Virus record (IMG/VR): IMGVR_UViG_3300025695_000113
Location: 1 to 21,508 of that record
Length of the DNA stretch: 21,508 nt
Source of the DNA: a virus
Direction: 5' to 3' (one strand)
This document shows positions 6,391 through 21,184 of this stretch, one piece after another. A program made the position numbers and the translations under genes. The notes under the pieces are model-generated. The model did no database searches and was not told where the DNA came from. It saw nothing but the letters and a program-made list of their open reading frames with translations. Within the stretch, counting starts at the first letter, position 1, and each line of letters opens with the position of its first letter.

Positions 6391-6993
6391 CTAATTATCA
6401 ACAACTTCTATGAGTTCATTTGCACTAAAAAGATGCCCGTTGAAATTTGTTTCGACCTTCATTCCGAAATCTACGTCAAATGATTCCGGAATCTTTGGAA
6501 TTTCTACTGCTACCTGTGCGTTAAGTTTACCAGAAGGATCCCATTTATCGTATTCCAGACTCAACTTCTCATATACCATATAGTCTTTCCAATAGTCTGC
6601 CAGATCGAAAGTGCGTTCATAGTCAATCTCGCCGTCTTCTCCAAACACCTTATACACAACCAGAAGTCCATCCTGCTTCTTCTGATTGTCTCCCCCGATA
6701 AGTTCGAGCGGCCCACCACGATAGACACCTTCTGACACTACGAGTCGAACATCCTTAAACATATCCACATTACCATTGATAGATCGAAACAGTTCTGCGT
6801 GTATGTACAGATTACGTGCAAGTTGCACACGTGCATCTTGATTAGTTCTGTATTTCGCAATGCTAGTCATGCTACATGGGTTGCCCTTACTACCAAAGAA
6901 CTTAGATATAGATACGCCCGGCGCAAGTTTGGTCGTCGTTGTAACCTTGTCCAAGTGGTTTGGATTATATACCGGATCGGGAATAATTATCAT
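6391..6993 (-). CDS. Hub-operon protein, possible degenerate M15-type peptidase fold
   Basis: 200 aa, not matched to a T4 gene. It overlaps the spike gene by 4 bases (ATGA), so it is the last cistron of the hub operon. The layout suggests a peptidase M15_A (D-Ala-D-Ala carboxypeptidase-like) fold. VSISKFFGSKG resembles the family's opening FTLxE segment. A helix (VQLARNLYIHAELFRSINGN) is followed by VRLVVSEGVYRG, where the family has itSGYRS. KLSLEYDKW followed by AQVAVEIP stands where the family has the IlEf and WVHvs strands. The His and Asp zinc ligands expected around SxHxxGxAxD and in WVH are not seen, so an active enzyme is unlikely. This reading is an inference from pattern. The protein is probably a structural part of the hub or spike. 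Confidence 0.5.
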   Translation of the reverse strand: MIIIPDPVYNPNHLDKVTTTTKLAPGVSISKFFGSKGNPCSMTSIAKYRTNQDARVQLARNLYIHAELFRSINGNVDMFKDVRLVVSEGVYRGGPLELIGGDNQKKQDGLLVVYKVFGEDGEIDYERTFDLADYWKDYMVYEKLSLEYDKWDPSGKLNAQVAVEIPKIPESFDVDFGMKVETNFNGHLFSANELIEVVDN

Positions 6994-8432
6994 TTGAATC
7001 TCTTACCTCTATTATTCACAGAATTGCCCAATGCAATATAACCATAACGGGGAGTTACCTCGTTACCTTTTGATATACGGTTGACCTTTGGTGGGAAGAT
7101 GTTTACATTCCAATCAGCACTCAGCATATTTTTCTGAACCATCACATCAACAACCTTAGTGTCTTGGTAATTCTTTAATTCTTTGTTAGCAGGATCTCTC
7201 AAAGAAGAACGAATCTCATCTATGGTAGGTTCTTTCTCATACAGATCACCATAATCGTCACGAAGAAGAATGCTGTATAATAACTTATCTTCCTCATCGA
7301 TAACAATAGGTTTGATAGATAGGTGACCACTCATCAACAAGTTGGCAACCGCATCTGTCTTTGGTACAGGTTTGACCGGAGTGGGCCCCTCCATTCTCTT
7401 AGGACACTCGGGAGCACCCCCTTCTGGTTGTCCCGCCTTTTCCTTGGATGCAACCATTGCGGTTTTGGCATTTTCTGCTTTGTATGCAAAACCTGAGTTA
7501 ATCGCTTCTAGTGCTTGTCCGTGGAATGAACCGTAGAATGCAGCACCAGATGCAAATGCCTTTGCTCCCTTAGGCCCCATATAGACTGGCCCTGTAAACT
7601 CTACTGCCTCACCTCCGATTGCACCCCTCATGCCCAGTATAGATATGTCGGTTGCTTGGATGTTTGCGTTAAGTGCAGACATGCCAATGTGCTCTTCTGC
7701 AGATACTTGGAATCTGTTGGCAGTAAACATCTCAATCTCTGCACCAACATTATTCTTATAGTACCCCTTAACAACATGATCTTCGTTGCCAAGAATCAAT
7801 CGTGCTTCATGCTCTACCGTCTTGTAGGTGGCAGTACCCTTTGTGGTGTACTTTGTATTTAATCCAACCTGTGTAACATTGCTTCTACGAATATTAGTCT
7901 CAGAGTTACCGTCAACATTGACTCTATAGTCACCACCTACATTAACATTGTAGTCACCAGTGACTTCTAATGTCAAATCTCCGTTATAAACTAATTTACC
8001 GTTACCTTCCACAATAACAGTTTGATCGCCACCAGTAACCTCCACCTTGTTCTTGAGTGCAGATATAACTACCGAACCATCCGCACGTATCTCCACACCC
8101 GCACCCTTACGGTGCTTGATGAGAATGCGTTCACCGCCTGGAGTATCGTCGTAAGAAATGACATGTCCGGAAGCGGTCTCTTTGACTTGGTTGAACGGGA
8201 AACGAGAAGGTTCTTGGTCTTCCAAGTTTAGTGGATTGGCAGGAGAACCACCTCCAAGATAAAGGTTTTCTACTTTGAGTCCACGTGCTGATCGGTTGAT
8301 AGAAGACCCATAGTGATACTCTCGCTTGGGGTATTCACCAGTAGGATCTTGGAAACCATCAAGAGGTACCCCTTCGGTATTTTCTACTGCGGGGTTATCT
8401 CCGAGATTAATTTTCTTTATCTGTGTAGTCAT
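6990..8432 (-). CDS. Central spike beta-helix protein (gp5 C-terminal/VgrG-like)
   Basis: 480 aa. Residues about 90-200 carry the short repeating strands of a trimeric beta-helix spike: GERILIKHRKGAGVEIRADG, then GGDQTVIVEGNGKL, GDLTLEVTGDYNVNVGGDYR, VNVDGNSETNI. This is the pattern of T4 gp5C and VgrG spike shafts. The N-terminus (HYGSSINRSARG) is not an OB fold; that domain is in the separate gene at 11178-12044. The last 150 residues (after about 330) are Pro and charge rich and do not continue the helix, which is unusual for a piercing spike. The start overlaps the stop of the amidase gene by 4 bases. In T4 the gp5C shaft comes from self-cleavage of one gp5 chain; here it is a separate gene. 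Confidence 0.8.
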   Translation of the reverse strand: MTTQIKKINLGDNPAVENTEGVPLDGFQDPTGEYPKREYHYGSSINRSARGLKVENLYLGGGSPANPLNLEDQEPSRFPFNQVKETASGHVISYDDTPGGERILIKHRKGAGVEIRADGSVVISALKNKVEVTGGDQTVIVEGNGKLVYNGDLTLEVTGDYNVNVGGDYRVNVDGNSETNIRRSNVTQVGLNTKYTTKGTATYKTVEHEARLILGNEDHVVKGYYKNNVGAEIEMFTANRFQVSAEEHIGMSALNANIQATDISILGMRGAIGGEAVEFTGPVYMGPKGAKAFASGAAFYGSFHGQALEAINSGFAYKAENAKTAMVASKEKAGQPEGGAPECPKRMEGPTPVKPVPKTDAVANLLMSGHLSIKPIVIDEEDKLLYSILLRDDYGDLYEKEPTIDEIRSSLRDPANKELKNYQDTKVVDVMVQKNMLSADWNVNIFPPKVNRISKGNEVTPRYGYIALGNSVNNRGKRFK

Positions 8433-11167
8433 ACTGGTTTCTTCTTAATAATGTCTGTTGGTTTCAATGCAGGTTCAGTCAATGGATCATTGTAGACCGA
8501 CTTCTTACCAAACTTGTTCTCGACAAAAGTAATTACGTCAAAGTATGGGTCTTCATTAGATGCATCGATTGAGTTATGTCCTAATACTTGACCGCCTGGG
8601 TACTTCTGATAGAACACCTCTAGTAGATGCTCAAGTGTTTTCATTTGTGCTTGTGTAAACGACTGCGCAGATCTATTGAGTAGCGGGTTCTCTGATTCAC
8701 TAGGAACATTAACACCACCAATCAAGCATACATCTACAGAGACTTCTTTGTGGCCACGTACATTGCTCGCATCCGTCCTATTGTCTAACGGCACACCACG
8801 CTGTAATCTACCGTCACGGCGAATTACATAATGATATTGAATACCATCATGACCCGCTTCGTTGTGTCGAATATGCAGTTCTTCTGAACCAATATTTGCA
8901 TTGGTGTATGTTTCACTAGCATGAACAATCACCTCACTGATATCACGCGTGACTTTGGTAAACTCTAATCCTAGTTCTTCCTTCGAGTCAACATAAGGGA
9001 AAGACTCGGTTTGTGAACGAAGATATCTTTTAACCAATTCTGCCAGATCAGTATCCTCTGTATAATAGTCACCGACTTCTGATACAATCTGTCCCGCAAT
9101 TGTTGTATTAACTTTGTCCAATGCTGATTCAATATTATCAATATTTGACTTAAAGTTTGAGATCTCGTCGGCACTAATGCCAGCACTCGCCGCTCGGTTA
9201 GATACTTGCTCAGTAAACGTCTTGGCATCACTGGCCGGAGTAGTCGCAATGATGCTCTTGAGTTGTGGACTAAAGTCATTGCTGGCAAGTGCAAGTGTTT
9301 TCGTAGCATTACCTTTTGCGGCCGGACTACCATCCAACAGATCATCTAATATGCCATTAACAATATCATCACCAATGCTAATAGCACCACCGAATAGGTT
9401 CTGAAACTCACTTGCAACAGATCCAGTCAAATCCTCGAATAGATCCTGCGCGGTACCAAATCCGGTGTCAATTGCTGTTTCTATAATATCACCAAAGTCA
9501 CTGAGAGCATCATCGACGACACCCAAGACATCACCGGCGACATCATCAATTATTCCACTAACCAATGCAGAACCCGTCACTACACCAACGGCCGCATTAG
9601 TTACGTCACTGAGTAGGGATGAATCGTCTTTACCCACAAGTTGAAGTGCATTTTCAACAGCACTGCTATCCGCAGATGATCTCCTTTGGGGTATATTTGC
9701 GGGTGGAGTTTCTAAAACAAATGAGCACTCGACATCATACGGAACCGCGTTTTCGGCATCGAACGTAGTCACCTCAAAGTTTAGATAGTATGATTTCATC
9801 TTTTCTGAAATAGTCCATTGTCTCGCTCCCGCACCTGCAGAATTACCACTGAAGACGGGATCATTATCACCAAATTTATCTTGATTTTGAGTCCACTCAA
9901 TAATTAAAGGGTTTTTATCATTCGATATTAGTTCGAATTTTTTACCGAAGAACGAAACGGGACTGCCTGATTTTGTTTCCGATAACCACACTTTGAAGTC
10001 AGCAGAATCTCTTAGAGTATCAGTCAATTTCGTTATTTCAAACTTACCAGATGCTTTTTTATCATCGAGAGTACTAAATCGAATATAATCCTTAAACTCG
10101 TTGCCCAGATTTAGAGAAACGTCAACTTCTTTCGAATCATTCGTACCCGTTGTGGTAACTGCTCCACCATACCATTCCGTAACTATTTCGGTTTCTCCAG
10201 TATCAGAATCTCCACCGCCACTCCACGTTTCCTTCATTGTGGCCAAACTGCCTAAGAACCCCGCACTCAAACCCTCAACCGAGACAGCACCCGCTACGGA
10301 TGATATTTGATCAATTAGACTCAATTTACGTGCGGCCGAAACTTCCACAGCACCCACTAACTGAGCAATAGAAGCACCGCCCATCGAAACAATATCAATA
10401 CTCTCATCCGGAGGTGTAATGCCAGTCAGGGTTTTAATTGTGGTGTTTACAGGTGTTGGAACTTTATCACTCCCAGAGGAAGTTCTAACTAACCCCCCAC
10501 TAAAAGTAATATTACCAATAGTAAGTGAATATCGGTCAGGACTATCCGTGACATCGACAGTGGTGCCGCTGTCTGTTGTGACAGTCACCGTCACCGCGTC
10601 TTCCTCTCTGTATCCAGTGCCGCCAAAAGTCAGACCGCCCTGATCATTATTCACAGTAATTGACGGATCAGAAGAATCTGCTGAAATGGTAACTTCATCT
10701 CCATCCAAATTAGTTGTGAGACTAATCAAATTTCCATCAGAATCATACACACCACTAGACCCGTCCAGTGGCAATATAGGTTTCTCAACTAAATTGCCGT
10801 CACTGTCTACTATAGGCACTCCACCAGCACTATCCATCACTAGTGTGGTATAAGGTAGTCCAAATATGTTAAAAGAAAATATCCCTGCACTCACGTTAGA
10901 AATTGTGTACAGTGGATTATGTGAGGGCATCAACGGAGAATTGGTTTGTATGCTAGTCAATAAAGAATTCGTGTAATTAGACGTATGTAGAACGTCCAAC
11001 GACTGAATACCACTGATATTAACGAGCGAGTTTGCATTACCAACCTTAGTAACGTTGTTGGCAACATAAATATTGTTCGCTTTATCAACAGCAGCCTTTA
11101 TATCAGACTGAGATGTATTATTCTTATTTGCTAATGCATTATTAAGTTTGTTGACTGCATCAACCAT
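8429..11167 (-). CDS. Baseplate hub protein with C-terminal N-acetylmuramoyl-L-alanine amidase domain
   Basis: 912 aa. The C-terminus (about 740-885) is an amidase_2/T7-lysozyme-type domain. It has VHASET (H749), IRHNEAGHDGIQYHYVIRRD (Y778), VDVCLIGGV, FTQAQMKTL and LGHNS...EDPYFD (H864, D873). These line up with T7 lysozyme H17, Y46, H122 and the C130 ligand, which is Asp here as in AmiD/AmpD. The T7 K128 position appears to be Asn. The domain should cleave the bond between muramic acid and L-Ala. The rest is not recognised: two DSDGNL motifs near 121 and 142, a beta-rich region to about 510, and a long Ala/Gly/Asp-rich amphipathic stretch (about 525-720). Its position between the OB-fold and spike genes suggests a tail-tip enzyme. 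An AGGGA ribosome-binding site precedes the ATG. Confidence 0.82.
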   Translation of the reverse strand: MVDAVNKLNNALANKNNTSQSDIKAAVDKANNIYVANNVTKVGNANSLVNISGIQSLDVLHTSNYTNSLLTSIQTNSPLMPSHNPLYTISNVSAGIFSFNIFGLPYTTLVMDSAGGVPIVDSDGNLVEKPILPLDGSSGVYDSDGNLISLTTNLDGDEVTISADSSDPSITVNNDQGGLTFGGTGYREEDAVTVTVTTDSGTTVDVTDSPDRYSLTIGNITFSGGLVRTSSGSDKVPTPVNTTIKTLTGITPPDESIDIVSMGGASIAQLVGAVEVSAARKLSLIDQISSVAGAVSVEGLSAGFLGSLATMKETWSGGGDSDTGETEIVTEWYGGAVTTTGTNDSKEVDVSLNLGNEFKDYIRFSTLDDKKASGKFEITKLTDTLRDSADFKVWLSETKSGSPVSFFGKKFELISNDKNPLIIEWTQNQDKFGDNDPVFSGNSAGAGARQWTISEKMKSYYLNFEVTTFDAENAVPYDVECSFVLETPPANIPQRRSSADSSAVENALQLVGKDDSSLLSDVTNAAVGVVTGSALVSGIIDDVAGDVLGVVDDALSDFGDIIETAIDTGFGTAQDLFEDLTGSVASEFQNLFGGAISIGDDIVNGILDDLLDGSPAAKGNATKTLALASNDFSPQLKSIIATTPASDAKTFTEQVSNRAASAGISADEISNFKSNIDNIESALDKVNTTIAGQIVSEVGDYYTEDTDLAELVKRYLRSQTESFPYVDSKEELGLEFTKVTRDISEVIVHASETYTNANIGSEELHIRHNEAGHDGIQYHYVIRRDGRLQRGVPLDNRTDASNVRGHKEVSVDVCLIGGVNVPSESENPLLNRSAQSFTQAQMKTLEHLLEVFYQKYPGGQVLGHNSIDASNEDPYFDVITFVENKFGKKSVYNDPLTEPALKPTDIIKKKPV

Positions 11168-11177
11168 TTAATTTTCC

Positions 11178-12044
11178 CTAAATATCAGAATTCTTATATA
11201 AAGAATATATTCTACTTACTTCGGCGGTATAATCGGCAGTAACAGGTGCGTAATATCTACCTATGATCTGACCAAGCGATTTGCCCTTTGCTGGATCAAT
11301 GATATCCGAATTCAATATGCGAATGTTTGCATCCACGTGTGTTGTATTTAGTTCGAACAGTATGAATGCTAACTGTGAAGAAAACCACCACCAGTTATTA
11401 TTAAACTGCTTTAGTCGAGTGAACCTAACATCACTCCAACCCAAAAGGCCTGTACCATTGACTGTTGGGTATATGGTAGAGAAACTAGGATCATGTTGGG
11501 ATATGCAACCAACAATCGCACACGACTGCTTTATGGTATAACCGTTAGAGAGAAAGAATCTCACTGCAGTATCCCTGCGAGCGTTGCTCGCAGCACTATC
11601 AATTGGATCTTGTGTGTAATTATCCAGTGCGGGGTTGTCTTCATCAACAGCAATCGTTGATTGATTGTAGAAATCGATATCTGGATTAACTCGCTCTAGT
11701 AAATCTTGATATGCTAGAGATAATTGAACCGAAGAAGGAAACTCTGTACGAGGAAGAGATCCGATTACCACAGGAACCTGTGACTCTTTACCATCCATGA
11801 ACAACCCAAAGACAAGCGAACCCGCTTCTAGTTTTGGAGTGCTACCTATGCCGCTAACTCCACCTTCGGTCGTAGGTAGAATACACTGCGCCCAAGGCAA
11901 ATCATTCTGCTTGATTTCTCGATTAGATGGATTGTGTACTCCGTGTATGCGCACACGTACGCGACCCTCAAATCCGTATGGAGGAGTTGTATCAATAACG
12001 TCAGCAACAAACCAACGGAAATTGTCGCCGTAATACTTCATCAT
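11178..12044 (-). CDS. 5: gp5-like hub protein: OB fold plus tail-lysozyme-like domain
   Basis: 288 aa. Residues about 8-100 form the gp5/VgrG OB fold: FRWFVADVIDTTPPYGFEGR, VRVRIHGVHNPS, DLPWAQCILP, then GSLVFGLFMDGKESQVPVVIG. This is the platform that sits on the gp27 trimer. Residues about 155-275 resemble the phage tail lysozyme family (Phage_lysozyme2): AIVGCISQHDPSF, then GTGLLGWSDVRFTRLKQF, SSQLAFILFEL and RYYAPVTAD. Family members usually have GNxxAES with the catalytic Glu; here the matching place reads QHDP, so activity is doubtful. The beta-helix of T4 gp5 is missing and encoded separately. The start overlaps gp27 (ATGA). A second ATG one codon later is possible. Confidence 0.8.
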   Translation of the reverse strand: MMKYYGDNFRWFVADVIDTTPPYGFEGRVRVRIHGVHNPSNREIKQNDLPWAQCILPTTEGGVSGIGSTPKLEAGSLVFGLFMDGKESQVPVVIGSLPRTEFPSSVQLSLAYQDLLERVNPDIDFYNQSTIAVDEDNPALDNYTQDPIDSAASNARRDTAVRFFLSNGYTIKQSCAIVGCISQHDPSFSTIYPTVNGTGLLGWSDVRFTRLKQFNNNWWWFSSQLAFILFELNTTHVDANIRILNSDIIDPAKGKSLGQIIGRYYAPVTADYTAEVSRIYSLYKNSDI

Positions 12045-15667: not shown

Positions 15668-16179
15668 TGAAAACGTACAAAGGATTATATAAAATAAAAA
15701 ACCCCGACAAATATCGGGGTGACGCGCAGAATGTCGTCTATCGGTCTGGATGGGAGATGGCAGTCTGTAACCATCTTGACACTTCACCTTCAGTTGTTGA
15801 ATGGTCAAGTGAAGAGGTTATTATACCATACTTATGCGAAACTGACAAGAGAATGCATCGATATTTTGTAGATTTTTATGTAAAATACCGTAATGGCAAG
15901 TCAGTGTTAATAGAAGTTAAACCACACAAAGAGACTATGCCACCCAAGGGTTCAGGGAAGGGGGTATCACGTAGACGAATGCTCACCGAAGGAATGACCT
16001 ATATAAAGAACATATCAAAATGGAAGGCAGCAAAGGATTACTGTGCTGATCGTGGTTGGCACTTTGAGATATGGACAGAGAATGAACTACGTGCAATGAA
16101 CCTTCTACCCAAACCACTAGGTAAGAAACCTTTCAAACCACTGAAGAAAATGAAACCCTATAGGAAACCAAAGAAGTGA
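15667..16179 (+). CDS. 4: Head completion nuclease-fold protein gp4
   Basis: 170 aa. T4 gp4 (50/65) finishes the head before tail joining and has a TnsA-like restriction-endonuclease fold. Here the motif order is intact: VVYRSGWEMAV (E30), VVEWSSEEVIIPY, HRYFVDF (D69), then VLIEVKP (E83 and K85), which is a PD-(D/E)XK active site. A Lys-rich 20-residue tail (GKKPFKPLKKMKPYRKPKK) could bind DNA. The start matches the family's usual beginning (YKGLYKIKNPDKYRGD), but no clear ribosome-binding site precedes the ATG. The stop overlaps the GTG start of the next gene (GTGA). The NPDKYRGD codons also form a hairpin that reads as a terminator on the opposite strand. Confidence 0.9.
   Translation: MKTYKGLYKIKNPDKYRGDAQNVVYRSGWEMAVCNHLDTSPSVVEWSSEEVIIPYLCETDKRMHRYFVDFYVKYRNGKSVLIEVKPHKETMPPKGSGKGVSRRRMLTEGMTYIKNISKWKAAKDYCADRGWHFEIWTENELRAMNLLPKPLGKKPFKPLKKMKPYRKPKK
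15691..15720 (-). terminator. Minus-strand intrinsic terminator embedded in the gp4 coding sequence
   Basis: Positions 15701-15707 (ACCCCGA) and 15714-15720 (TCGGGGT) form a perfect 7-bp stem with a 6-base loop. On the minus strand the stem is followed by TTTTTTATTTT (15701 down to 15691), the form of an intrinsic terminator. It lies 24 bp before the minus-strand late promoter, so it would stop leftward antisense transcription before the gp48 operon starts anew. Confidence 0.6.
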
Positions 16180-16748
16180 AGAAAGTCTTTATTATTGGAT
16201 TTAATCGAACCGCAACCAAAGCCCTACACAACTTATTTAAGAACTCTGGTTATTCCTCTGCCCACTACAGTCTAGCAGATCCTACGGGTGGGTCGATTAT
16301 TATTGCAGATCAGATGGTAGAGAACCTTAGATCATATAAACCATTAATGCATCGCATGGATCATATACAAGTGTTTTCTGATATGTTCTGGCATCGAGAA
16401 GACACTTGGATTGACGGCAACAGGTATTACCATGAGTTACACTGTGACTATCCAAACGCATACTTCATCATGAATACACGCGACATGGATGGGTGGTTAA
16501 ATAGTAAACGTAATCACAAGAATGGTGCATACCTTAAACGATGCATGGAATATCACAACCTCACCGAACCTGATATGTTGGATTGGTTCCGAGAAAATAG
16601 AGACCGTGTAGAAAGTGAGATGCGTACTTATTTTAAAAACAATGATAGATTCATTGAGTTTGATGTGAATAATGATCCTATATCTAAACTCGTCAATTTC
16701 CTCAAACCCAACTTCTTTTTGAAAGAAAGTGCATGGGTTCGTGTATAA
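16176..16748 (+). CDS. Sulfotransferase-family protein
   Basis: 190 aa. The N-terminus VFIIGFNRTATKALHNLF (about 4-21) fits the 5'-phosphosulfate loop of PAPS-dependent sulfotransferases (family form GxPRTGTTSL). FIMNTRDMDGWLNSK (about 97-111), with R102 and S110, fits the 3'-phosphate-binding strand and helix. The C-terminal part (EMRTYFKNNDRFIEFDVNND) matches the usual end of the bacterial Sulfotransfer_4-like group. It would move sulfate from PAPS to an unknown acceptor, for example a glycan or protein on the host or virion. The start is GTG, overlapping the gp4 stop, with AGGA about 10 nt upstream. The stop lies inside the next late promoter. It is an accessory gene in a structural block, and it could be diverged and inactive. 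Confidence 0.72.
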   Translation: MKKVFIIGFNRTATKALHNLFKNSGYSSAHYSLADPTGGSIIIADQMVENLRSYKPLMHRMDHIQVFSDMFWHREDTWIDGNRYYHELHCDYPNAYFIMNTRDMDGWLNSKRNHKNGAYLKRCMEYHNLTEPDMLDWFRENRDRVESEMRTYFKNNDRFIEFDVNNDPISKLVNFLKPNFFLKESAWVRV

Positions 16749-16778: not shown

Positions 16779-17363
16779 ATGTCCGACATCTTTGACAGAT
16801 TAGAACGACAAGCATTTCGTGCGGGGATCACTCCACGCACCGAAGAAAGTCGTAAGTGGTTTCAGAAGAAAGCGTCTAATCTGAGATCCATCAACCGTGA
16901 AGAGTTGATGAAAGAAGAACCAATCAAGTCTAGGTCTAAACAGATCGTGGGCGGTATGTACATGTTCTTCTATGACCCAAAGACTAAAGAACAACTACCT
17001 TACTTTGATGCGTTCCCTCTGGTAATTGTTGTTGGCCCTGCGCCTGGAGGGTTCTATGGTATTAATTTACATTACCTACCACCAACATTACGTCTACAAT
17101 TTTTTTCAGCATTGATGGACATTCAGGGCGACAAGCGTTTAACAGATGATGCTAAGTTTGCATTGACATATCGCACATTAAAGAAATCAGCAAAGTTGAG
17201 ATATTTCAAACCGTGCTTCAAGCATTATTTGAACTCTCAAGTACAGAGTCGTTTTGCCGAGGTACCTGCACCTGAATGGGAGATTGCTACATTCCTACCA
17301 ACCGCACAGTTCCGTAAGGCGAACAACTATAAAGTTTATTACGACAGTAGGAATCAGATCTAA
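16779..17363 (+). CDS. Conserved T4-like myovirus late protein, function unknown
   Basis: 194 aa. A central block, MYMFFYDPKTKEQLPYFDAF followed by PLVIVV, then GGFYGINLHYLPPTLRLQFF (about 92-112), is a conserved pattern I recall from marine T4-like phages, but I cannot attach a tested function to it. The N-terminus (IFDRLERQAFRAGITPRTEE) is basic and helical. The C-terminus, WEIATFLPTAQFRKANNYKV, is also distinctive. No membrane segment, signal peptide or catalytic motif is seen. It has a clear AAAGGG ribosome-binding site and a late promoter directly ahead. It is joined to gp54 by a TAATG overlap, which suggests a tail or baseplate assembly role. A hub subunit (T4 gp28 position) is one possibility, not shown by the sequence. 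Confidence 0.6.
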   Translation: MSDIFDRLERQAFRAGITPRTEESRKWFQKKASNLRSINREELMKEEPIKSRSKQIVGGMYMFFYDPKTKEQLPYFDAFPLVIVVGPAPGGFYGINLHYLPPTLRLQFFSALMDIQGDKRLTDDAKFALTYRTLKKSAKLRYFKPCFKHYLNSQVQSRFAEVPAPEWEIATFLPTAQFRKANNYKVYYDSRNQI

Positions 17364-18091
17364 TGGCAGCAGGATTTGGAATCGACGAACTAAAGGCACA
17401 GATTGGTCAGTCGGGTGGTCTCGCTCAGGCACATCAGTTTATGGTCAAACTACCTCAGTTACGAACATTTAAGGTTGACGCACAAGAATTAAGTCTACTA
17501 TGTTCTGCTACTGTATTGCCTGGCCGACAGATTATGTCGTTGGATTATGCAATAGGTACAACCAACCGCAAGATTGCGAATGGGTTTGCAATCACAGACG
17601 TGACATTGACCTTCATTGTTGCTAACAACCATATTGTACGTCAGTACTTCGAAGCATGGCAAAACGAAGCACATGATCCGGTAACAAAAGAAATTGGTTA
17701 CTACGATGACTATACATATGATGTGAGCATTTCTACTATGCAACGTGGATTGCGACAATCGTTGTTCAAAAAACAAATTGGTGGGTTGAACAAGATCCCC
17801 TCGTCAATACGCAATCGTTTACCTAGCATTGGCCCTCTTGATTTGAGTCAAGGTGAGGTAGACGCAGGTATACAATTCAAGATGAAGGAAACGTTTACCT
17901 GTAAACTATTAGAGTGTTATCCAACAACAATGAATGAACAAGCATTGGGTAATGCTCAAGAAGGTGTTATGGAATTTTCTGTGCAGTTGTCATACAGCAA
18001 TTGGGAAAGTAAAGTTGGTAAGTTTACCAGCAACAATGAAGGACTAGGACAATCTTTAATTGGTGGAGTTCTAGGAAAAATACTTGGTTAA
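17363..18091 (+). CDS. 54: Baseplate tail-tube initiator gp54
   Basis: 242 aa (T4 gp54, 320 aa). gp54 adds on top of gp48 and starts polymerisation of the gp19 tube, sharing the tube fold. The matching segment is FAITDVTLTFIVANNHIVRQ followed by YFEAWQNEAHDPVT (T4 LDPLVISFRMDSEACNYRAM, then QDWVNSVQDPVTG). Further matches are FTCKLLECYPTTMNEQAL (T4 MFTGCIPISVSAPEL) and a closing MEFSVQLSYSNWES strand (T4 TTFDVTFAYRVM). The early LCSATVLPGRQIMSLDYAIG fits the tube-protein N-terminal hairpin. The start shares one base with the previous stop (TAATG). The C-terminus ends in a Gly-rich tail. Confidence 0.8.
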   Translation: MAAGFGIDELKAQIGQSGGLAQAHQFMVKLPQLRTFKVDAQELSLLCSATVLPGRQIMSLDYAIGTTNRKIANGFAITDVTLTFIVANNHIVRQYFEAWQNEAHDPVTKEIGYYDDYTYDVSISTMQRGLRQSLFKKQIGGLNKIPSSIRNRLPSIGPLDLSQGEVDAGIQFKMKETFTCKLLECYPTTMNEQALGNAQEGVMEFSVQLSYSNWESKVGKFTSNNEGLGQSLIGGVLGKILG

Positions 18092-18106: not shown

Positions 18107-18811
18107 ATGGCGTTACCTCAGTTAAATTCAAGTCCTCAGTATACGACGAAGATACCGTCTACAGGACTAGAGATCTCATACCGCCCTTACCTTGTTAAGG
18201 AAGAAAAGGTATTGATGATCGCATTTGAAACTGGTGATCAAAAACAAGCACTACGAGCAATTGTTGATACGATGAATGCATGTATCACCGACGATATCGA
18301 TATCACCAAATTGACTACATTTGATGTTGAGTATTTATTCACCCAAATTCGCTCAAAGTCCGTAGGTGAAGTGGCAACTGTTTTATTATCATGCTCTTCG
18401 TGTGAACACAAGAATGAAGTTGATGTTGACCTGTCCACTATCGAAGTGGTCAATGGAGACAAGTCGAACATCATTCAACTGACCGACGATATATCAGTGG
18501 AAATGCAATATCCATCATACAAGTCTATTATGAATCTAGACATGGAAAAGCAAAACACTGAACTTGGTTTTGAAATGCTCATTAACTGTGTTGGTGCAAT
18601 TTGCACCGAGGAAGAGCGCATTGACACTCGCGATATCAAGCGACAAGATGTGCAAGACTTCATAGAGCAGATGACTACAGAACAGTTTAAACGAGTGTCT
18701 GATTTTATGTCAGATATGCCAGTGGTCAAGAAAGATATTACGTTCCCGTGTGTATCGTGTAATGAAACAAATAATCACACACTACAGGGAATTAACGATT
18801 TTTTATCATAA
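18107..18811 (+). CDS. 26: Baseplate hub assembly protein gp26 (T4_baseplate family), likely tail-assembly chaperone
   Basis: 234 aa from the ATG at 18107 (T4 gp26, 208 aa). I chose this start because GGAG lies 6 nt ahead; the frame is open to a TTG at 18095 that has no such site. The family pattern is visible: LEISYRPYLVKEEKVLMIAF, then FDVEYLFTQIRSKSVGE, and two CxxC knuckles, CSSC at about 96-99 and CVSC at about 215-218, which could bind zinc. The gene ends GINDFLS with a UUUUUUA slippery heptamer (18799-18805) two codons before the stop, and AGGGA at 18786-18790. A -1 shift would extend it by 64 residues through the next ORF to give a 297-aa product. The tape measure follows directly. 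Confidence 0.85.
   Translation: MALPQLNSSPQYTTKIPSTGLEISYRPYLVKEEKVLMIAFETGDQKQALRAIVDTMNACITDDIDITKLTTFDVEYLFTQIRSKSVGEVATVLLSCSSCEHKNEVDVDLSTIEVVNGDKSNIIQLTDDISVEMQYPSYKSIMNLDMEKQNTELGFEMLINCVGAICTEEERIDTRDIKRQDVQDFIEQMTTEQFKRVSDFMSDMPVVKKDITFPCVSCNETNNHTLQGINDFLS
18786..18811 (+). promoter_or_regulatory. Candidate programmed -1 frameshift site (AGGGA plus U UUU UUA)
   Basis: The heptamer TTTTTTA at 18799-18805 is in the correct X XXY YYZ phase for gp26 (codons GAT TTT TTA TCA TAA). AGGGA at 18786-18790 lies 8 nt upstream, like the internal ribosome-binding stimulator of dnaX. After a -1 slip the next codons (ATC ATA AAC CTC TCG) stay open to 18999. A weak 5-bp hairpin (TTGGT 18829-18833 with ACCAA 18847-18851) follows at some distance. 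Confidence 0.7.
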
Positions 18812-18999
18812 ACCTCTCGCACGACAATTTGGTTAATCATTATAAGACCAATTTTTCGTTAATGCAACATCATCATTATAGTCTGACAGAACTTGATATG
18901 ATGATGCCGTGGGAGAGGGAGATTTACGTTAGTATGTTAGTTGATTGGGTGAAGGAAGAGAATGATCGCATAAAACAAGAGCAGATGAAAAACGGATAA
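18805..18999 (+). CDS. Small gp51-position ORF, probably the -1 frameshift extension of gp26
   Basis: The frame is open from 18796 to the TAA at 18997-18999. If reached by a -1 slip it adds 64 residues from 18805. The coding pattern (LSHDNLVNHYKTNFSLMQHH, YSLTELDMMMPWEREIYVSM) resembles a conserved piece that I recall downstream of gp26 in marine T4-like phages. The only independent starts are ATG at 18862, which would cut the conserved YKTNFSLM segment, and TTG at 18829. Neither has a good ribosome-binding site. In T4, gene 51 follows gene 26 and encodes a hub-assembly factor, but I cannot show homology to it. Independent initiation remains possible. Confidence 0.65.
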   Translation: MINLSHDNLVNHYKTNFSLMQHHHYSLTELDMMMPWEREIYVSMLVDWVKEENDRIKQEQMKNG

Positions 19000-19006
19000 T
19001 AAAAAA

Positions 19007-21184
19007 ATGGCGGATCCAATAGTCAGTGTAATTAACAAATTACGCGATGATAATATAAGACAGCAAGAGCAGAGTAAAGCCGCAGACGATCAGCGTTTGG
19101 GTGAACTGCGTCTAATTTCTCAGGTGCTTTCTGAAAATCTTAAAATGACCAAACAAGGTCTCTTGGATGCTGAAGAGGGAAGACGAGAGAGTGCTAAAAA
19201 AGGTGGGGGTGGCACTGGCACTGGCACCCCAAGTGCTAAAAGTCCAGTTGAACCTGACGACTTTGATTTAAGTGGCACTCTTGCTATTTTAGGTGGTATC
19301 GGTGCATCAGTCGCAGGATTTGCTGTAGGTCTAGTTCAAGGATTCAATGGGATACTAAAGTTAGTCACAGGTAGATTCCTCGCACCTTTCCGTGCAATCG
19401 CAGAAGTATTCGAGAAACGTGGTACAAGTAAGTTCCTCAAAGCAGATTCGTATAAGGCACTAGGAAAAACCACAAAGTTCTTCAGAAATCTTGCTGATAC
19501 TTTTGCTAGGTTAGAGAAATCAACTAAGAATATTCTGAAACCTGTGGGCAATCTGTTCAAAACCATACGATCATATGCGGGTATGATAGGTAACAGCATC
19601 AAAGGTATCAGTGGTGTTGGTATCGACAAGATCACAAAACCATTCAAAGACTTTGGTAAGTTCTTGGGTAGTATTCAGAAAGCAGTTGTTGGACTACCTT
19701 CTCCAAAAGAAGGTAGTGCAATTGCTGGTCTTATTGATAAAGTAACAAAACCATTCAAGAACCTCATGGCAGGTATCAAAGGTATCGCCGAGGGTTCATC
19801 TAGGATTGGTAAAACTCTGGGAAGTTTCTTTTCTGCATTCAAGGTAATCGGACGATTCGTTGCATTTCCTTTAACTATTATCATGGGCATTATCGATGGT
19901 TTCAAGGGACTATTAGCAGGTGCGGATCGTCAGTCTGGTATGGTTAACAAACTAATCGGCGGTGCTATTGGTGCAATCACTGGTGTTCTCAAGGGACTGG
20001 TTGCTGTTCCGCTTGACATGCTAAAGAGTGCAGTATCGTGGATTGCAGGTAAATTAGGTTTCACTGAGTTTGAGAAGTTACTCGACTCGTTCAGTTTTGC
20101 CGATGCATTCCAGAAGGTAGGTGATGCTATAGCAGATGGATTTATTAAGTTCTTTGATGGCCTTAGATATGTATTCTCTAATTTTGTAGACGGGTTGATG
20201 AAACCATTCGAGGGAGGATTCAGTTTTGGTGGACTAGCAGAGTTCATATTTACTCTACCTAACAAGATAATGTTTGGTTTGTTTGACTTGGTAAAAAACG
20301 GTGTTTCTGCACTATTGAGTATTTTTGGTGCAACAGACGCGGCCGGCGCAGTAGACGACTTTAGTTTTATTGACACATTTGAGGGTATGATAGATTGGGT
20401 TAAATCATTACCAAGCAAATTGATTGACGCAATGTTAGGGTTATTCGAGGGGTTTGATATAGCAGCATCATTAAACGGTTTAGGTGACTTTGCTACTCTA
20501 GCAACACAAAAGTTGAAATCTATGCTGATTTCTTTGCTACCCGAACCCGACAGTTTAGCGGCCGCAATCGTACCAGATGCTCTATATGAGTGGGCAAACC
20601 TAACTCCAGCAGAACCGCCCGCACCATCATCTGACCCCGCAGTAAGTGCTGCTGCAGAAGCACCCATAGCAAGTGCTCCTGCAGAACCTCCATCGACATA
20701 TACTGGAAGTATGCGAGATGCCAAAACCGCCGCTATTATGGATGCTGAGTCCGCATCATTCTTTGCAGAGATTGATTCGGAGAAAGGTCGAAAGGAAATC
20801 GAAGACAAGGCTGCAGAAAGAAATAAACGCATGGAGCAGATGGAAGTACAGGCAAATGAAGCACTCCTCGCTAAAGAACAACGGTATAGGGATGCTATTG
20901 CTTCTGGAAAACTATCGGGTGATAGACTATTGCAGGCACAGGGTGCACTAGAAAAGATTGACACGATCAAAGCAGAAAGACCGTTGAGTACCCAACGTAC
21001 TGCTAATGGTCAAGAGTTGCAAGATAAGTCTAGAGAGAATGCACAGGCCGCTGGTGGAGCAACGAATGTTGTAGTTAGTGCTCCCCAGAGTAATCAGACT
21101 AGTGTCAACAACTCCACTTCTGCGATTATGGACACTAATCTACCGACATCTAATAACCAAGAATACTCTTGGGCAGCGATATAA
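19007..21184 (+). CDS. 29: Tail tape measure protein, gp29-like
   Basis: 725 aa (T4 gp29, 590 aa). It has no clear sequence match by eye, but composition and position fit a tape measure. It has a charged helical N-terminus (about 1-65), a Gly/Thr/Ser linker encoded partly by a GGCACT tandem repeat, hydrophobic segments at about 89-118, 280-303 and 314-336, and long Gly/Lys/Phe-rich helices. There is a small internal duplication (IDKITKPFKDF near 206 and IDKVTKPFKNL near 243). An Ala/Pro/Ser linker (about 535-575) and a charged coiled-coil (about 580-660) follow. The Asn/Ser/Gln-rich end is SNQTSVNNSTSA. In T4, gp29 sets the tail length and lies inside the tube. It follows the gp26/frameshift ORF, the expected place after a tail chaperone. 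Confidence 0.78.
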   Translation: MADPIVSVINKLRDDNIRQQEQSKAADDQRLGELRLISQVLSENLKMTKQGLLDAEEGRRESAKKGGGGTGTGTPSAKSPVEPDDFDLSGTLAILGGIGASVAGFAVGLVQGFNGILKLVTGRFLAPFRAIAEVFEKRGTSKFLKADSYKALGKTTKFFRNLADTFARLEKSTKNILKPVGNLFKTIRSYAGMIGNSIKGISGVGIDKITKPFKDFGKFLGSIQKAVVGLPSPKEGSAIAGLIDKVTKPFKNLMAGIKGIAEGSSRIGKTLGSFFSAFKVIGRFVAFPLTIIMGIIDGFKGLLAGADRQSGMVNKLIGGAIGAITGVLKGLVAVPLDMLKSAVSWIAGKLGFTEFEKLLDSFSFADAFQKVGDAIADGFIKFFDGLRYVFSNFVDGLMKPFEGGFSFGGLAEFIFTLPNKIMFGLFDLVKNGVSALLSIFGATDAAGAVDDFSFIDTFEGMIDWVKSLPSKLIDAMLGLFEGFDIAASLNGLGDFATLATQKLKSMLISLLPEPDSLAAAIVPDALYEWANLTPAEPPAPSSDPAVSAAAEAPIASAPAEPPSTYTGSMRDAKTAAIMDAESASFFAEIDSEKGRKEIEDKAAERNKRMEQMEVQANEALLAKEQRYRDAIASGKLSGDRLLQAQGALEKIDTIKAERPLSTQRTANGQELQDKSRENAQAAGGATNVVVSAPQSNQTSVNNSTSAIMDTNLPTSNNQEYSWAAI
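19211..19227 (+). repeat. GGCACT tandem repeat in the tape measure linker
   Basis: Nearly three copies of GGCACT (ggcact ggcact ggcac) encode the Gly-Thr-Gly-Thr-Gly-Thr linker between the charged N-terminus and the first hydrophobic segment of the tape measure protein. Copy number could vary between strains. Confidence 0.6.

Follow-up and report, generated by a model that had tools for sequence, protein, structure and literature searches.

A conserved slip site at the end of gene 26 points to a frameshifted tail assembly chaperone pair in a marine T4-like phage

In phage lambda, a short protein and its frameshifted long form are tail assembly chaperones (TACs) which bind the tape measure and tube proteins (PMC5009743), and the same review describes frameshifted tail chaperones as conserved across long-tailed phages “except T4”. 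The locus analysed here raises the question of whether gene 26 of a T4-like phage and the small open frame following it, at the position of gp51, are two genes or a single one decoded in two ways. An earlier note on this DNA had proposed that they form a frameshift pair of the G/GT type, a proposal that is supported at the sequence level, gp26 being assigned to T4_baseplate and the extension to PHROG 634.

The gene 26 locus and its slip site

The window, i.e. the whole stretch of DNA analysed (21,508 nucleotides, IMG/VR record IMGVR_UViG_3300025695_000113), comes from a marine phage that its gene content places with the T4-like phages, and the closest named relative of its gp26 is that of phage C48C1 (Kyanoviridae). 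The order at the locus is tail tube, gp26, extension and tape measure candidate, with the following features:

17363..18091, + strand: tail tube-like gene, directly upstream of gene 26 (PHROG 45 tail tube, 3.9e-29)
18107..18811, + strand: gene 26, TAC-N candidate, 234 aa (Pfam T4_baseplate, 1.2e-52; PHROG 150, 1.2e-56)
18786..18790, + strand: AGGGA, Shine-Dalgarno (SD)-like, possible frameshift stimulator, 8 nt before the heptamer
18799..18805, + strand: slippery heptamer T TTT TTA in X_XXY_YYZ phase (from the sequence; kept in relatives)
18805..18999, + strand: -1 frame extension, gp51-like C-domain, 64 aa (PHROG 634, 2.4e-27)
join(18107..18805,18805..18999), + strand: predicted fusion, 297 aa (from the reading frames)
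19007..21184, + strand: putative tape measure gene, 725 aa, directly downstream (from position and length only)

Gene 26 starts with an ATG preceded by GGAG, and in the profile search the Pfam T4_baseplate match spans residues 10-233 of its product. The same type of search gave no Pfam match for the putative tape measure gene; for a gene at a nearby position in phage phiM12, the annotation gives a similarity to tape measure proteins.

The zero-frame end of gene 26 reads GAT TTT TTA TCA TAA. The earlier note had described a T TTT TTA heptamer in phase for gp26, an AGGGA 8 nt ahead of it, the gp26 stop two codons past it and a -1 frame open for 64 codons to 18999. The position of the heptamer is exact to the base and the other elements were all recovered, with the AGGGA at 18786-18790, TCA followed by the TAA stop at 18809-18811, and a -1 frame open from 18796 until its own stop at 18997-18999, which leaves 64 aa past the heptamer. 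The window contains many TTTTTT runs, 21 against an expected 26, and such a heptamer in one sequence therefore proves little.

Gene 26 and the gp51-like segment very probably constitute one TAC locus expressed via -1 programmed ribosomal frameshifting, and the conservation of the site in related phages brings the frameshift reading close to certainty. Most ribosomes would end at the gp26 stop and produce the 234-aa short form, while a minority would slip by -1 on U_UUU_UUA and read on in the -1 frame, producing the 297-aa fusion, which ends in a small domain made of helices. If the two products act like those of lambda G/GT, the short one would coat the tape measure protein, and the long one, present in small amounts, would recruit tail tube subunits. 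The occurrence and efficiency of slippage at this locus are inferred, as is the role of its products as chaperones; in E. coli, U_UUU_UUA slips less than A_AAA_AAG (PMC5009743).

The signals surrounding the slip site were compared among relatives. SD-like tetramers are concentrated between -15 and -12 nt, mostly due to a conserved Gly codon, and an upstream SD match of 4 or more is found in 92% of cases versus 28% elsewhere in gp26. The SD signal reaches 4.33, versus 4.15 after synonymous randomisation, with 0 of 200 randomisations as high; as the conserved protein sequence accounts for almost all of this signal, it lends weak support to an SD stimulator. Downstream fold z-scores are -1.6 versus -0.8 for gp26 controls and single hairpins are suggestive. 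A conserved downstream RNA structure was rejected, no common helix emerging from RNAalifold or from pair statistics on 110 clusters of relatives, and the Rfam search returned no match. Frameshift sites can function without a downstream RNA structure.

Conservation of the heptamer and coding in the -1 frame

Following the suggestion of the earlier note, gp26 and its downstream region were aligned over 264 related loci, gathered from the nearest IMG/VR relatives, six further scans (one of them empty) and named phages. The heptamer, its phase and the -1 open frame proved to be conserved: an in-phase TTTTTTN is present at the gp26 end in 254 of the 264 loci and in all 80 of the nearest IMG/VR relatives (40-68% identity), and the extension measures 56-73 aa where complete. 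These three elements persist in relatives with as little as about 25-40% identity in gp26 and span several host groups, the heptamer being found in Kyanoviridae, Emdodecavirus, Otagovirus, Schizotequatrovirus, Menderavirus, Cinqassovirus and Rhizobium phage LG08. The stop past the heptamer varies in nature (TAA, TAG or TGA) and in position (7-31 nt from the heptamer start), whereas the heptamer and its phase are invariant. Leaving aside T4's own subfamily, Tevenvirinae, nearly every T4-like phage shares this putative gp26 slip-site arrangement.

The heptamer loci were grouped into 110 clusters below 80% identity. The P-site codon is TTT in 110 of 110 clusters against a background of 67% (probability about 1e-19) and the codon before the slip Phe ends in T in all of them as well (probability about 1e-25), two values which overstate the case somewhat because the clusters were chosen for the heptamer, the unselected rate being 254/264. 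Among the remaining ORFs of these loci that reach 150 aa, an in-phase XXXYYYZ occurs within the last 12 codons in 24 of 341, and is combined with a -1 frame open for 50 codons in 5 of 341, as compared with 110 of 110 gp26 genes, here again preselected for the heptamer (254/264 unselected). The combination of the heptamer with an open -1 frame is not due to chance.

The extension behaves as protein-coding sequence from the slip site onwards. Its in-frame starts in the window are a TTG at codon 8 (18829) and an ATG at about codon 19 (18862), and an SD-like sequence was found at neither, in agreement with the claim that the extension is deprived of a good start and ribosome-binding site. A further claim, that its conserved segment begins ahead of the first ATG, was also borne out. 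Between the slip site and the most frequent first ATG lie 18 codons, over which pN/pS amounts to 0.27 for the -1 frame versus 1.27 and 1.76 for the other frames. The predicted structure of the extension (pLDDT 87) consists of three helices, the first of which covers residues 9-23, so that a product started at the first ATG of the window's extension would miss most of it. PHROG 634, the gp51 family, matches all 46 extensions scanned. The extension also matches PHROG 150, the gp26 profile, towards its C-terminus (positions 235-276), and this family therefore probably includes some proteins holding both parts; among the 60 phage records listed, no natural in-frame fusion of gp26 with the extension was noticed. 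No meaningful structural match was found for the extension model. About 30% of the 110 clusters have an ATG within the first seven codons of the extension, and an independent product is thus possible in these.

A reading of the extension as a small gene in its own right (gp51), translated by reinitiation or from an alternative start just past gp26, appears improbable. Most database records do annotate short ORFs there, an ATG is found at codon 3 of the extension in some cyanophages, and a TAATG is present at the gp26 stop of KVP40-type phages as well as in Vibrio phages D531, K444 and K471, which keep it while the heptamer is lost. However, the first ATG of the window's extension lies in the conserved segment, within the first predicted helix, the codons ahead of it are under selection, neither candidate start comes with an SD, some records annotate no ORF at the extension, and an independent gene leaves the invariant heptamer unexplained. 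Slippage of the RNA polymerase on the T run, whereby an added U would let part of the mRNA encode the fusion in one frame, would have an identical protein outcome and could take place on the same run of 6-7 T, but we regard it as very unlikely: in 81 of the 110 clusters the run stops at six T and the next base is C, which is short for slippage during transcription, and the conserved X_XXY_YYZ phase is a requirement of tandem tRNA slippage.

The T run could also be a protein-driven coincidence, gp26 having to end with Phe-Phe or Phe-Leu and the downstream frame being open by chance. T-rich codons are indeed common, and gp26 of T4 carries a Phe-Phe near its end although it has no downstream extension. 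This Phe-Phe is however encoded by TTC TTT, which forms no heptamer, whereas in the related loci synonymous choices always preserve the six T; purifying selection moreover acts on the -1 frame, and a protein family of its own, PHROG 634, corresponds to it. These observations refute a coincidence, to which we give practically no credit, and -1 ribosomal frameshifting is retained as the reading of the locus.

Phages without the heptamer and the status of T4 gp51

Of the ten exceptions among the 264 loci, eight are of Tevenvirinae type and the other two are Vibrio phage D531 and Stenotrophomonas phage IME-SM1. The latter has five T versus six in the 99%-identical Ps15, its gp26 frame runs on, and the shorter run is probably a one-base indel or a sequencing error. 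In Vibrio phages D531, K444 and K471, the heptamer is absent and the ORF at the gp51 position opens with the ATG of a TAATG that overlaps the gp26 stop, which suggests that stop-start reinitiation may have taken over from the frameshift. In three KVP40-type phages, one and the same junction combines a TTTTTTC heptamer with a TAATG overlapping the gp26 stop. The earlier note had held that loss of the heptamer in close relatives with the ORF intact would speak against its proposal; such a loss was only encountered in the distant Vibrio group of D531, K471 and K444 and in Tevenvirinae, which have gp51 as a complete gene of its own on the opposite strand.

The gp26 of T4 is homologous to that of the window, and T4-type gp51 aligns with gp26 plus the extension. 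T4 differs from the window by the missing heptamer and by the location of genes 26 and 51 on opposite strands, gp51 being encoded by a separate gene of its own (249 aa). A profile of the fused protein matches gp51 of T4, Cronus and STP4-a, and a profile of the extension alone matches these three gp51 and not gp26, the E-values being those of a six-sequence database; for Cronus gp51, the fused profile gives a single alignment over positions 24-284 of 297. As the fusion profile matches gp51, the T4 protein would be the long form become a gene of its own, and is best read as a genetically separated counterpart of the whole frameshift fusion.

In the gp26 tree, which is unrooted and has weakly supported deep branches, the heptamer-free groups of Tevenvirinae and Vibrio phages are separate clades, implying two changes. 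It is possible, and to us nearly as plausible as its opposite, that T4-type phages have three interchangeable means of making an abundant short chaperone along with a scarce long one, i.e. -1 frameshifting in most lineages, a duplicated, full-length, opposite-strand gp51 in Tevenvirinae and the TAATG overlap in a Vibrio group, the frameshift having been lost at least twice.

Proposed chaperone role, known systems and annotation

The predicted structure of gp26 (pLDDT 93.5) was compared with solved structures by Foldseek, and its most probable matches were HK97 gp13 (2ob9; probability 0.84, E-value 0.25), a tail assembly chaperone, and 3fgx (probability 0.66, E-value 1.1), named as a TAC (PMC9603447). 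The poor E-values make this fold match to TACs only suggestive, and sequence searches against solved structures found no relative. Given that the plausible solved matches of the model are TACs, weak as they are, gp26 and gp26-51 would most likely be a TAC-N/TAC-NC pair, like lambda G/GT and P2 E/E+E'.

The slippery sequence of lambda G/GT differs from that of the window, and its protein sequence is unrelated. What the window locus would have in common with lambda is a short major and a long minor form, with a -1 frameshift just ahead of the tape measure gene, as described for lambda (PMC5009743). Phage P2, which has a contractile tail and served as positive control, possesses an annotated -1 frameshift TAC, E/E+E', with a T TTT TTG in the same phase as in the window (Christie et al. 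2002), and the likeness extends to the location of the heptamer near the gene end, the short -1 extension and the tape measure gene, putative in the window, directly after it. Alignment of the extension with P2 E' was not above shuffles (32 of 500 as good) and Pfam GpE matched none of the 46 extensions. Vandenendeviridae and Andersonviridae, which are other myovirus families, display a poly-T at the TAC-N end (motif GTTTTT), an open -1 frame and a misannotated downstream ORF (PMC12846349).

The TAC genes of T4-like phages have been identified by Vladimirov, Gautam and Davidson (2022, Virology 566:9-15), as cited in PMC10885494 and PMC12846349. With reference to this work, the PRFect paper (PMC10885494) mentions that a separate fused gene replaces the frameshift in some T4-like phages, and the Adele paper (PMC12846349) mentions that TAC-N genes of T4-like phages have slippery sites of the poly-T kind. 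As the title of the 2022 study is about TAC genes of T4-like phages, the genes identified by Vladimirov et al. are very probably of the gp26 locus type. The impression conveyed by the earlier note, that such a frameshift is absent from the standard annotation of T4-like phages, holds for the deposited records, and the idea itself is not wholly new, judging from what the two citing papers say of the 2022 study. Among 18 heptamer-bearing public records, none annotates the joined product, 15 annotate a short separate ORF and 3 annotate nothing; the conserved extension is unannotated in S-WAM1, ACG-2014e and Aeh1. The locus of the window is an unannotated, well-conserved and misannotated case of an already known mechanism, of limited novelty.

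The extension is present in 543 INPHARED records; in hundreds of entries, from cyanophages and pelagiphages among others, the gene is probably split or missing. With the frameshift reading, gp26 and gp51 of T4-like phages, which carry the labels “baseplate hub” and “hub assembly catalyst”, would fit the tail chaperone scheme from which T4 had seemed to depart.

Elsewhere in the window, the parts of the T4 gp5 spike seem to be spread over separate genes (6990-12044, - strand), according to domain matches:

11178..12044, - strand: Gp5_OB and a weak tail lysozyme match
8429..11167, - strand: 912-aa ORF with an Amidase_2 domain
6990..8432, - strand: weak match to the gp5 trimerisation domain

A gene with a sulfotransferase domain (16176-16748, + strand; Pfam Sulfotransfer_4, 2.7e-11) is flanked by the head-closure and DNA end protector genes.
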